Source: Saprospiraceae bacterium
GTDB taxonomy: Bacteria; Bacteroidota; Bacteroidia; Chitinophagales; Saprospiraceae
DNA: 33,747 nt
Reading direction: 5' to 3'
NCBI GenBank assembly: GCA_020631635.1
Contig: JAHDGW010000006.1
Coordinates: forward strand, 1 to 33,747
Positions 25,196 to 29,708 of the stretch are shown piece by piece; position 1 is the first letter of the stretch, and each line of letters opens with the position of its first letter. Both the position numbers and the translations under genes were made by a program. The notes beneath the pieces were generated by a model. The model worked only from the letters and a program-made list of their open reading frames with translations, ran no database searches and had not been told where the DNA came from.

Positions 25196-26272
25196 ATGCG
25201 AATAATCACTTTACTTCTTATCGGTATCCTTGCCCTGTCTTGCAACACTACTGATCATCATCCGATTGTAGATAGTCAAACACCAGTATTATCTAAAGTT
25301 CTTGCAGAGCAGCTTTTAGACTTACCTCTCAAATGTGTCGAACAACAACTCCCTTATAAATCAGGTATCATATTAGCTGACTCCAGCGATCTTGACTTAC
25401 CGATCGTACACCACCCTATCTTTTATGGTTGTTTTGATTGGCACTCCGCTGTGCATGGTTATTGGTCTATGGTTTTTCTTTTGAAATCGCATCCTGAGCT
25501 ATCTCGAAAAAATGAGGTACTCTCCATTTTCAACAAGCATTTCACAAAAGAGAATATAACTCAAGAAATTGCTTATTTCAATCTCAATAAGTATTCGGCA
25601 TCCTTTGAACGGACTTATGGATGGGCCTGGCTGCTCAAGCTTCAAGAAGAACTGGATACTTGGGAAATCGAACAAGCCAAAAGCTATGCCAATACATTGA
25701 GACCACTCAGCAATCTGATTATCAAAAAGTATGAAGACTATTTACCCAAACTGGTCTATCCTATTCGAGTTGGAGAACATACAAATACCGCTTTTGGTCT
25801 AAGTTTCGCTTTAGATTATGCGGTACAGTCTGGTAATAATGTTTTTGCCAATTCTGTTAAAGAGCATGCCATGCGCTTTTATGCTAGAGACGAAGACTGC
25901 CCTATAACTTGGGAGCCTAGCGGATATGACTTTTTATCTCCCTGCCTTTCTGAACTCAGTCTTATGAAAAAAGTACTAAGTAAGGATGAATTTAAGTCTT
26001 GGAGTAGTGCCTTTCTTCCTAGCCTATTTGATAACAGTCTTACACTTAGCCCCGGAGAAGTAAAGGATCGGTCTGATGGTAAACTAGTGCATCTAGATGG
26101 ACTCAATTTTTCTAGAGCTTGGTGCCTGTATAATCTTGATCAAGAATATGCAAATCAATTAGCAGATCAGCATATCAATCATTCCTTGGATAAAATAAAA
26201 GATGGTGATTATGCTGGGGAGCATTGGCTCGCAAGTTTTGCATTATATGCACTCAAAACAAGTGCTCAATGA
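25196..26272 (+). CDS. DUF2891 family lipoprotein
   Basis: Lipobox ILALSC; FYGCFDWHSAVHGYWSMVFLL, FERTYGWAWLLKLQEEL, GEHTNTAFGLSFALDYA, CPITWEPSGYDFLSPCLSELSLM. Confidence 0.8.
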   Translation: MRIITLLLIGILALSCNTTDHHPIVDSQTPVLSKVLAEQLLDLPLKCVEQQLPYKSGIILADSSDLDLPIVHHPIFYGCFDWHSAVHGYWSMVFLLKSHPELSRKNEVLSIFNKHFTKENITQEIAYFNLNKYSASFERTYGWAWLLKLQEELDTWEIEQAKSYANTLRPLSNLIIKKYEDYLPKLVYPIRVGEHTNTAFGLSFALDYAVQSGNNVFANSVKEHAMRFYARDEDCPITWEPSGYDFLSPCLSELSLMKKVLSKDEFKSWSSAFLPSLFDNSLTLSPGEVKDRSDGKLVHLDGLNFSRAWCLYNLDQEYANQLADQHINHSLDKIKDGDYAGEHWLASFALYALKTSAQ

Positions 26273-27477
26273 TCAGCTCTCTTAAAAAGTATTTTGGACC
26301 TTCTATGCTTATCACTGCGGCCTTCATTGGTCCGGGCACATTGACTGTATGTACTATTGCGGGTTATGAATTAGGTTATGAACTTCTATGGGTATTGCTA
26401 TTCGCAATTTTCACAACAGTTGTCTTGCAAGAAATGTCAGCAAGAGTTGGTCTAAAAACACAACAAGGACTTGCTCAAGCCCTTCAAAATTACATTCCAA
26501 ACAAAGTCATAAGAATTTCAATTATCGTTCTTTTACTAGCAGCTATTTTAGTTGGGAATACTGCTTACGAATCTGGCAATATAGCTGGAGCAGGACTAGG
26601 GCTATCGGGCTTATTTGGTGATATTTGGTGGTTTCCGATCATCATAGGCATCTTAGCTATAGGCTTATTGAGTGTACCATCTGTTCGTTACTTCCAGATG
26701 ATCATAAGTGGTATTGTCATACTGATGGTCGTTTGCTTTTTGATAGCCGTCTGTATGATCGGGCCCAGTTATTCAAATATACTATCAGGTATAATGCCTT
26801 CCAGTATATCAAGTGATAGTATACTCAAGGCTGTAGCGCTAGTAGGTACTACTGTGGTGCCCTACAATCTATTTTTACATGCTTCTCTTATCTCTGAAAA
26901 ATATGATCAAGGGTATTCACTCCAAGATCTCAGAATAGAAAACATGCTCGCAGTATTTTTGGGAGGGTTGATCTCTATCCTGATTCTGATTGTGGCCGCT
27001 GAAACCAGCACAATGAATGGCGGTGGATCCGTGAAATCGATCATGGATCTAGCAACGCTACTCAACCCTAGCTTTGGCGAAGGGTCCTTGTATATAATCT
27101 CGATAGGGCTATTAGCCGCAGGATTGAGTTCCGCGATTACAGCTCCTTTGGCGGCAGCCTATGTCGGTAAAGAAGTATTTAGTCTATCTCGGGATAGTTG
27201 GTATTTCAAAAGTATCTGGATAGTCATTATTCTGATTGGCGTGATAATTTCTCTTTCTGGTTATCAACCCATTTTAATAATAAAATTTGCTCAAGTCGCG
27301 AATGGAGTTATACTTCCACTACTAGCAGGCATACTTATATGGATGACTAATCAGAAATCTATTGTAGGCAAAGACATCAACAGCCTCGTATATAATGGAC
27401 TAGCCCTATTGGTTTTGATCGTAACTATCTTTATTTCTTTACGAGCTATGCATAGTGTATTCGGTATTTTCCAATAA
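26269..27477 (+). CDS. NRAMP-family-like (LeuT-fold) membrane transporter with non-canonical substrate motifs
   Basis: About 11 TMs; NRAMP-like TM1 AAFIGPGTLTVCTIAGYELGYELLW and TM6 VGTTVVPYNLFLHASLI; 4-bp ATGA overlap with the upstream gene. Confidence 0.85.
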   Translation: MISSLKKYFGPSMLITAAFIGPGTLTVCTIAGYELGYELLWVLLFAIFTTVVLQEMSARVGLKTQQGLAQALQNYIPNKVIRISIIVLLLAAILVGNTAYESGNIAGAGLGLSGLFGDIWWFPIIIGILAIGLLSVPSVRYFQMIISGIVILMVVCFLIAVCMIGPSYSNILSGIMPSSISSDSILKAVALVGTTVVPYNLFLHASLISEKYDQGYSLQDLRIENMLAVFLGGLISILILIVAAETSTMNGGGSVKSIMDLATLLNPSFGEGSLYIISIGLLAAGLSSAITAPLAAAYVGKEVFSLSRDSWYFKSIWIVIILIGVIISLSGYQPILIIKFAQVANGVILPLLAGILIWMTNQKSIVGKDINSLVYNGLALLVLIVTIFISLRAMHSVFGIFQ

Positions 27478-28215
27478 GTGATCGTGAGAAATCATATACA
27501 TATCAATTGTGATCTGGGAGAAGGTAACACTAATCTTGATAAATCCATTATGCCATTGATAGATGCATGTAACATTGCATGCGGTGGGCATACTGGAGAT
27601 GTTGATTCTATGATTCATTCTATAGAGCTTGCTCAAAAGCATAAAGTAGAAATAGGTGCTCACCCCTCCTACCCCGATCAAGATAATTTTGGCAGATTGA
27701 GTATGGATTTATCATGGATAGAATTAGCTCAAGCATTGAATTTTCAATGGAATTCGTTTAAAAAAATCGTACAGCGAATAGGTGCTACTATATCGCATAT
27801 CAAACCACACGGAGCACTTTATAATGATTGTCAAAAAGATGCTCAGCTCAGAAGGCAAGTATTTAATTTAATGCACAGTTGGGATGATAGCTTATACATT
27901 TTCACCAATGCACTTATCACTGAAAAAATCTTTAATATCAGTCAAGAACTATTTTTGGATCGAAATTATAACAAAGATCAATCGCTCGTTTCACGTCAAC
28001 AAGAAAATGCCCTTATTAGCGATCCGAAAGAAGTCATCGCAAATCTAGATCGATTGATTATGTATGGTGAATTATTGACAATAGATGGGACTGTTTTAAA
28101 ACCAGAATTTCAAACTCTTTGCGTCCATAGTGATAGCCCTAATGCCCTTAATATACTTCAACAGATAGGAGAATATTGTAAAACCAAAAAGATCGCTCGT
28201 GGAAAAAACACTTAG
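27478..28215 (+). CDS. pxpA: 5-oxoprolinase subunit PxpA (LamB/YcsF family), GTG start
   Basis: INCDLGEG, DACNIACGGHTGD, VEIGAHPSYPDQDNFGR, ISHIKPHGALYND. Confidence 0.93.
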   Translation: MIVRNHIHINCDLGEGNTNLDKSIMPLIDACNIACGGHTGDVDSMIHSIELAQKHKVEIGAHPSYPDQDNFGRLSMDLSWIELAQALNFQWNSFKKIVQRIGATISHIKPHGALYNDCQKDAQLRRQVFNLMHSWDDSLYIFTNALITEKIFNISQELFLDRNYNKDQSLVSRQQENALISDPKEVIANLDRLIMYGELLTIDGTVLKPEFQTLCVHSDSPNALNILQQIGEYCKTKKIARGKNT

Positions 28216-28831
28216 AGACATCTTAGATATTAAAGTATATGATTCTTATATTTTTGGACAAGCGATATCCGAATACTCCCAAATAGATATTCCTCTACTT
28301 GCTCAATACCTCTATCATTCTGAAAACCACGTCATCAAAGATTGTCATGCCACAAACGCTGAGATATGTATCCAACTTTGTGAATCTTCAGCAGTAGAAC
28401 AATTACTCGATCTAAAGATTGACATAAGCAACATTCCCATACCGAGTAAGGATAAAATAGTTCTAGAGTTTGACCCCGATAAAGGTAACGATTGGTCACA
28501 TATAGAGGCTCATGTCAAAATTACAAGGCAACAATATATCGACCTATTGGAGCGCCTAGACTTCAGATTATGTATGTATGGATTCCTTCCGGGGTTCTGC
28601 TACCTTACTGGTTTGCCTAAGTCCATGCAAATCCCTCGATCCAGTAAACCAAAACGTAAGATTAAAGCCAAAACGCTAGCTCTAGGTGGTGAGTACATAG
28701 GGATATATGGTATTGATAGCCCAGGTGGCTGGATAGAAATTGGTGAATGCAATCAAAATTTACTTGACTTCAATAGTGAAAACATACACCGTCTTCCAAT
28801 AGGGCAAATCATCAACTTCAAATCGATCTGA
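28199..28831 (+). CDS. pxpB: 5-oxoprolinase subunit PxpB (allophanate hydrolase subunit 1 family), GTG start
   Basis: MYGFLPGFCYLTGLPKSMQIPRSSKPKRKIKAKTLALGGEYIGIYGIDSPGGW; 17-bp overlap with pxpA. Confidence 0.9.
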   Translation: MEKTLRDILDIKVYDSYIFGQAISEYSQIDIPLLAQYLYHSENHVIKDCHATNAEICIQLCESSAVEQLLDLKIDISNIPIPSKDKIVLEFDPDKGNDWSHIEAHVKITRQQYIDLLERLDFRLCMYGFLPGFCYLTGLPKSMQIPRSSKPKRKIKAKTLALGGEYIGIYGIDSPGGWIEIGECNQNLLDFNSENIHRLPIGQIINFKSI

Positions 28832-28832
28832 C

Positions 28833-29708
28833 ATGGAAGAAAACCGACAAGTAATAGAGATCACAGACGCAGGCTTGTATAGCATCATTCAAGATGGTGG
28901 ACGGGATTGTACTAAGTTTTATGCAATCCCAAGTTCTGGCTATATGGATACTCAAGCTGCCCAATATGCAAACTATATTTTATCCAATACACTACATCAT
29001 CCTGTCATAGAATGTAACCTATCAGGAATGGGCTTACGCTTTCATCATCCGATGCATGTTGCACTTACAGGCGCAGATTTTGATTGGAAACTGAATGGTC
29101 AAAAGATTGAGCTAGATAAAAAGATATTCATTTCTAAAGGAGATATGCTGACAGGGAGCTACGGCAAGAAAATGGCACGATCATATATCGCTTTTGATAT
29201 GGATCTCGATGAAAAAACAACATTGGGATCATATGCTACATACCCCACCGCGACGATAGGTGCCAATGGCGGTCGAATCTTACAGAAGGGTGATGCTATC
29301 AAACTTAAAAAACGCCAAAATACGCTGCCCGATAAGGTATCAGTTACCAAGCCAGTATACAAAAACTTACAAACCATTAAAATACAAAAAGGGCCCGAGT
29401 GGGAATTATTGGATCAAAATTCTAAGCGATTATTTAGTCAGCTTTATTTTCAAATAACTAGCCGAAGTGATCGAATGGCAGCGCATGTCACAGCTCAAGA
29501 AAAACTTCTGCTCAGAGAAAAGCCAAAGAATTCTAATTGTATCATTCCAGGTATGATACAGCTCAACTATGATGGTCATCTTATGGTCATCCTTAGAGAT
29601 GGTCAGACAACCGGAGGTTATCCAAGAGTCGCCTATATCACTAATGAACAATTAAATCTATTCAATCAAATTCTTCCTCATCGTAATTTTAAGTTTGAAG
29701 TCGAATAA
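28833..29708 (+). CDS. pxpC: 5-oxoprolinase subunit PxpC (biotin-dependent carboxyltransferase family)
   Basis: ITDAGLYSIIQDGGRDCTKFYAIPSSGYMDTQAAQYAN; IIPGMIQLNYDGHLMVILRDGQTTGGYPRVAYI. Confidence 0.92.
   Translation: MEENRQVIEITDAGLYSIIQDGGRDCTKFYAIPSSGYMDTQAAQYANYILSNTLHHPVIECNLSGMGLRFHHPMHVALTGADFDWKLNGQKIELDKKIFISKGDMLTGSYGKKMARSYIAFDMDLDEKTTLGSYATYPTATIGANGGRILQKGDAIKLKKRQNTLPDKVSVTKPVYKNLQTIKIQKGPEWELLDQNSKRLFSQLYFQITSRSDRMAAHVTAQEKLLLREKPKNSNCIIPGMIQLNYDGHLMVILRDGQTTGGYPRVAYITNEQLNLFNQILPHRNFKFEVE

Follow-up and report, generated by a model that had tools for sequence, protein, structure and literature searches.

Transport of 5-oxoproline (pyroglutamate) by proteins of the NRAMP kind is already known. 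Corynebacterium glutamicum needs PxpT (cg1142), an NRAMP-family protein that is 50% identical to Bacillus subtilis YcsG, to grow on 5-oxoproline, as confirmed by complementation, and mutants of both PxpT and YcsG fail on 5-oxoproline itself (PMC13274462). YcsG has also been renamed MntG, as a manganese importer; overexpression of ycsG raised Mn, and no triple mutant of mntH, mntA and ycsG could be obtained (PMC10448178). MumT of Acinetobacter baumannii is likewise reported to import Mn, as its deletion lowered cellular Mn and was complemented (PMC5050338). In Campylobacter jejuni, a mutant lacking cj0552-4, which encode DUF969, DUF979 and DUF2891 proteins, cannot use 5-oxoproline, an effect of losing all three genes together and so not assignable to DUF2891 by itself (PMC12795558).

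A coupled operon of DUF2891, NRAMP-related and pxpABC genes

We analyzed a 33,747-nucleotide stretch of DNA from a Saprospiraceae bacterium (contig JAHDGW010000006.1), which we refer to as the window. It contains a coupled operon of the order DUF2891-NRAMP-pxpA-pxpB-pxpC, with the following features:

25196..26272, + strand: gene that opens the operon, encoding a DUF2891 lipoprotein with lipobox LALSC; Pfam PF11199, 417 bits
26269..27477, + strand: NRAMP-related transporter, proposed 5-oxoproline importer and functional analogue of PxpT; Pfam PF01566
26329..26340, + strand: unwound TM1 motif G21-P22-G23-T24, replacing D-P-G-N
26857..26868, + strand: unwound TM6 motif V197-P198-Y199-N200, replacing M-P-H-N
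27478..28215, + strand: pxpA, 5-oxoprolinase subunit A (LamB/YcsF); Pfam PF03746, 234 bits; above the cut-off of the NCBIfam PxpA subfamily
28199..28831, + strand: pxpB, 5-oxoprolinase subunit B, divergent; Pfam PF02682, 103 bits; below the cut-off of the NCBIfam PxpB equivalog
28833..29708, + strand: pxpC, 5-oxoprolinase subunit C; Pfam PF02626, 198 bits; below the domain cut-off of TIGR00724

The DUF2891 and NRAMP genes overlap by ATGA and the TAA stop of the NRAMP gene abuts the GTG start of pxpA, both junctions lying where a first-pass annotation of the window had placed them. The pxpA and pxpB genes overlap by 17 bases, and a single base separates pxpB from pxpC. PxpB and PxpC are divergent, scoring under the NCBIfam cut-offs, yet their reading frames are intact.

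The gene upstream of the NRAMP gene had been left unidentified in the first-pass annotation, and its identity proved informative. Its DUF2891 product is a homologue of C. jejuni Cj0554 (PDB 8ieu, E = 1.5e-64), and a search with the DUF2891 model returned no match outside its own family at E below 0.001. On a Streptomyces plasmid, DUF2891 adjoins genes for a pyroglutamyl-peptidase (pcp), DUF979, DUF969 and pxpABC. The putative 5-oxoproline transporter DUF969/DUF979 (cj0552-3) thus sits with DUF2891, as does the NRAMP-related protein of the window, and in Streptomyces also with pxpABC and pcp, but the two kinds of transporter belong to unrelated families. DUF979 was found in 0 of 61 genomes from the family of the window, so that the NRAMP-related protein appears to take the place there that DUF969/DUF979 occupy elsewhere. 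We also considered DUF979 as the missing transporter of those genomes among the 61 that carry pxpA and no GPGT protein, and did not find it.

An NRAMP-family protein lacking the canonical metal ligands of TM1 and TM6

The open reading frame at 26269-27477 starts with ATG and encodes 402 amino acids, including AAFIGPGTLTVCT and GTTVVPYNLFLHAS. Its match to Pfam PF01566 (Nramp), 252.5 bits against a cut-off of 29.8, places the protein in the NRAMP/SLC11 superfamily. TM1 reads FIGPGTLT, with GPGT rather than DPGN, and TM6 reads VVPYNLFLH, with VPYN rather than MPHN. We aligned the protein with DraNramp (TM1/TM6, DPGN/MPHV), a Bacteroides Nramp (DPGN/MPHN) and EleNRMT (DAGG/APW). The alignment bears out the earlier claim that the TM1 Asp and Asn and the TM6 Met are all replaced, at exactly the codons then given for GPGT and VPYN, and shows that the TM6 His is replaced as well. 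Across 49 homologues, G21, P22, G23, T24, Y199 and N200 do not vary at all, so that the site is fixed and a product of neither chance nor decay. In TM3, E101, which occupies the position of DraNramp D131, is also invariant in this 49-sequence set; it is Gln in most FLA-type proteins (a TM6 subtype, as are the FLH and FLG types below) and in FLH_G002. N104 is common to the window protein and YcsG-type proteins.

An AlphaFold2 model built from the homologue alignment (pLDDT 87.2, pTM 0.87) has a LeuT-type fold in which TM1 and TM6 are unwound. The predicted TM1 helices span residues 11-19 and 22-35, with GPGT on the break at 20-21, and those of TM6 span 182-195 and 198-211, with VPYN on the break at 196-197. 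In a Foldseek search with this model, the top 29 matches were NRAMP-family structures, the best being DraNramp, EleNRMT and BfraNramp; below these ranked APC-superfamily amino-acid transporters, among them GkApcT (with arginine), LAT1, BasC and AdiC. The model also matches an integrative model of YcsG and FabL that is based on cross-linking (PDB 9a52, Foldseek TM 0.80). The Pfam match and the predicted fold, closest in the PDB to DraNramp, thus agree with the first-pass view that the remainder of the protein is NRAMP-like.

The canonical NRAMP/MntH proteins (DraNramp, EcoDMT, ScaDMT and, from clade B, BfraNramp) share the Pfam Nramp domain and LeuT fold with the window protein, the best structural match having a TM of 0.89 (6d91). 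The window protein, however, has neither the TM1 D-x-x-N nor the TM6 Met ligands of the canonical metal transporters (MntH, clades A-C), lacking both DPGN and MPH; DraNramp D131 and E134 of TM3 correspond to E101 and N104, and its neighbors are 5-oxoproline genes. The source genome (100% complete, 436 contigs) encodes only two NRAMP-family proteins, neither with a metal motif, and no canonical MntH was found in it.

The YcsG-type proteins that we found, on plasmids and in a pxp-type operon of A. baumannii, carry GPGF/GGY and have lost all of the metal ligands. Like the window protein they lack the D, N and M residues and keep the GPG of TM1 and a GN(I/V) in TM3, but they are only 19-22% identical to it, differ in motif (GPGF/GGY versus GPGT/VPYN) and have a YcsI-like hydro-lyase as partner gene where the window clade has DUF2891. 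In the tree that we constructed, PxpT and YcsG themselves are represented by YcsG-type relatives that have the same operon; an exact search of the genome contigs for the 3' end of C. glutamicum pxpT, taken from a published primer, gave no match. The YcsG-type branch (support 100/100) lies apart from the clade of the window protein (97/97), although a joint YcsG-type and window clade was not rejected (p-AU 0.36). These separate branches, at ∼20% identity, make the window clade another lineage of NRAMP-related proteins linked to 5-oxoproline and not a set of YcsG orthologues.

Linkage to two unrelated 5-oxoprolinases

A search of genome contigs yielded at least 591 relatives, and we examined the neighborhoods of the best 80, the named homologues, which span Flavobacteriaceae, Saprospiraceae, Balneolaceae and others. 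The pairing of an NRAMP-family membrane protein with pxpABC that characterizes PxpT/YcsG-type operons, and that is present in the window, is general among them: pxpA lies directly downstream of the NRAMP gene at 74 of the 80 loci, nearly always with pxpB and pxpC. DUF2891 is directly upstream at 45 of the 80. At one locus (L172), a gene for a fused OPLAH-type 5-oxoprolinase replaces pxpA directly downstream, and at four (L119, L136, L162 and L182) no 5-oxoprolinase is nearby.

We also drew 148 Bacteroidota genomes evenly and independently of this search, and the best 30 loci for the GPGT query among them fell into two TM6 subtypes. Where TM6 is of the FLH type, pxpA adjoins at 19 of 20 loci, and where it is of the FLG type (FLG or FLA), OPLAH or HyuA adjoins, within ∼1.5 kb, at 7 of 10. 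Around loci of other NRAMP types, controls that come from a family-level draw and not from the 148 genomes, pxp or OPLAH genes were found in 0 of 29 cases. We therefore rejected the equation of GPGT/VPYN with pxp as too simple, since the FLA/FLG subtype pairs with OPLAH. The first-pass annotation had held that GPGT/VPYN homologues with no association with pxp genes would count against its reading; such homologues exist, but most pair with the other 5-oxoprolinase. Among haloarchaeal relatives (37-39% identity, on plasmids), HyuA and HyuB are encoded directly downstream; these score best against caprolactamase models, below the curated cut-off, and although their substrate is not certain, it is likely that HyuA acts on 5-oxoproline.

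The same subtypes track the enzymes across genomes. In 61 genomes, each from a different genus of the window's family, pxpA is present in 16/18 with an FLH-type protein versus 6/43 others, and fused OPLAH in 11/14 with an FLA/FLG-type protein versus 4/47 others, two genomes (G027 and G030) being counted from partial or truncated matches. One or the other 5-oxoprolinase is present in 31 of 32 GPGT genomes and in 5 of the 29 without GPGT (Fisher p 8e-11, a value that ignores the relatedness of the genomes), and one GPGT genome (G022, 92% complete) has neither. The separate adjacency events, in the Bacteroidota FLG clade, at L172 and on haloarchaeal plasmids, are a stronger argument than this co-occurrence test.

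Proposed 5-oxoproline import, its alternatives and a possible wider G-x-G branch

The reading that best accounts for these data, and one that we consider highly probable, is that the window protein is an inner-membrane importer of 5-oxoproline. The first-pass annotation had proposed a non-metal substrate, most economically 5-oxoproline, and this gains support from the conserved synteny, from the loss of all canonical ligands in TM1 and TM6, and from two non-orthologous replacements, one of the 5-oxoprolinase and one of the transporter beside DUF2891. The L172, haloarchaeal and FLG/FLA loci show that the enzyme can be swapped. By analogy, PxpT, a more distant NRAMP-family protein, points the same way in being needed on 5-oxoproline, as may the amino-acid transporters among the nearest non-NRAMP folds of the predicted structure. 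Set against import are the position of the window clade outside the YcsG/PxpT clade, on a well-supported branch of its own, the reports that YcsG (PMC10448178) and MumT (PMC5050338) raise cellular Mn, and the four loci and single genome in which a 5-oxoprolinase is not nearby or not present.

In APC-superfamily amino-acid transporters, a G-x-G loop in TM1 binds the substrate carboxylate through backbone amides. Our analysis shows the sequence, operon, predicted fold and conserved linkage of the window protein, whereas we infer what it carries, in which direction, with which coupling ion and how it binds. As an NRAMP-related secondary transporter, on a branch of the APC superfamily, it would bring 5-oxoproline across the inner membrane, and PxpABC, the product of the coupled genes that follow, would hydrolyze it with ATP to glutamate. 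The change from D-P-G-N to G-P-G-T in the unwound middle of TM1 would create a G-x-G loop that binds the carboxylate of the substrate through its backbone amides, and the unwound TM6 (VPYN) and TM3 (E101 and N104) would line the remainder of the site. The DUF2891 lipoprotein would be an accessory of the same 5-oxoproline pathway.

Import of Mn, Mg or another lactam is in each case less likely. The window protein could be a divergent importer of Mn2+ or another transition metal whose gene merely has nitrogen catabolism genes as operon partners, which is the proposal made for YcsG (MntG) and MumT, whose overexpression and deletion phenotypes described above favor such a role; in addition, EcoDMT binding-site mutants retained Mn transport (PMC8806188). 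We regard this as unlikely, because the D, N, M and H residues of the metal site are gone not only here but also in YcsG-type proteins, including that of A. baumannii, and because the gene tracks a 5-oxoprolinase of either unrelated kind, which a metal role would not predict. At the A. baumannii locus (L109:6893-13100), genes for the NRAMP protein, PxpA, a YcsI-like hydro-lyase, PxpBC and a biotin carboxylase stand in the order of mumTLUHC. This order can be cited for the Mn reading; it also gives the operon published for "manganese and urea" the look of one for a 5-oxoprolinase.

It is very unlikely that the protein instead imports another lactam or pyroglutamyl compound (a pyroglutamyl dipeptide, a hydantoin or a caprolactam-like molecule), or exports 5-oxoproline. 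The caprolactamase-like scores of haloarchaeal HyuA/HyuB, albeit under the curated cut-off, and the pyroglutamyl-peptidase gene adjoining DUF2891 in Streptomyces fit such a substrate, but the commonest partner, PxpABC, is a cytosolic 5-oxoprolinase, for which 5-oxoproline import is the simpler need, and it is on 5-oxoproline itself that the PxpT and YcsG mutants fail (PMC13274462).

The NRMT-like Mg2+ transporter that the first-pass annotation had named as its main alternative can be rejected almost entirely: the window protein, like NRMTs (EleNRMT, CabNRMT), is Nramp-related, lacks the Met ligand and has a TM6 Thr (GTT in EleNRMT too), and EleNRMT resembles it at a low level (profile E = 7e-51) and in fold (Foldseek TM 0.85), but the DxxG-TxxA/T signature of NRMTs (PMC8806188), which keep the TM1 Asp, is replaced by GxxT in TM1, with Gly in place of Asp, and TxxV in TM6, an Rfam scan of the window gave zero matches and hence no M-box (linked to a subset of NRMTs) or other known metal riboswitch, and EleNRMT branches with metal NRAMPs, away from the window clade (84/60), their forced union having a p-AU of 0.07.

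Other NRAMP-related proteins with a TM1 G-x-G were evident in our searches. The only other NRAMP gene of the source genome (G000:C355:3158-4366; L002:1423-2658) encodes TM1 GTGS and TM6 GTTMAAATFLSR. Loci of this type have an alginate lyase (L198, L211), a KDPG aldolase (L206), a PfkB kinase (L200, L206), a TIM-barrel epimerase (L197) or an SDR, maybe a DEH reductase (L202 and the source genome's own L002), beside them, making these proteins candidate uronate or alginate-monomer transporters; a literature search joining the Nramp family with alginate lyase found no paper. Proteins with GTGS and TM6 GTTVFSG, encoded 0-15 bases from the mannonate dehydratase gene uxuA (L048:5968-8425, L051:4760-7215, L212:1036-3599), are candidate hexuronate transporters. 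Proteins with TM1 GPGS precede NAD-epimerase-like and DHDPS-like genes in one order in three genera (L044, L045, L047), and an amidohydrolase gene adjoins those for GTGS/GTTCSAA proteins (L196, L205). A very divergent NRAMP-related type, GVSHLVQ/GWMPIPIASVWH, occurs in two genera within the family of the window (L207:1396-2652, L213:3974-5230).

In published rooting, Nramp-related proteins are basal to the canonical family members (PMC12873925), so that an organic-acid ancestor is possible and an organic substrate may be the older state. The first-pass description of the clade as "repurposed" thus assumes a metal ancestor. We tentatively suggest, as a possibility that falls somewhat short of even likelihood, that the NRAMP superfamily contains a large organic-acid branch marked by a TM1 G-x-G (GPGT, GPGF, GTGS, GPGS), of which at least two deep clades would import 5-oxoproline and others would include candidate uronate or alginate-monomer importers; metal transport would then be derived, by conversion of a carboxylate-binding G-x-G into D-x-G-N, and YcsG and MumT would owe their Mn phenotypes to indirect effects.

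In the literature that we searched, we found no description of the window clade, its enzyme-matched subtypes or its motif code. The code, FLH with PxpABC and FLG/FLA with OPLAH, makes the 5-oxoproline reading directly testable, and in the dispute between YcsG/PxpT and MntG/MumT, the pairing of one transporter clade with two unrelated 5-oxoprolinases independently supports 5-oxoproline. Almost everywhere, annotation makes NRAMP proteins divalent-metal transporters, and nearly all of the annotated homologues that our search listed carry this label; if the clade carries pyroglutamate, many of these labels are wrong. The comparison further points to a way in which, within one fold, a metal site and a carboxylate site can replace each other.
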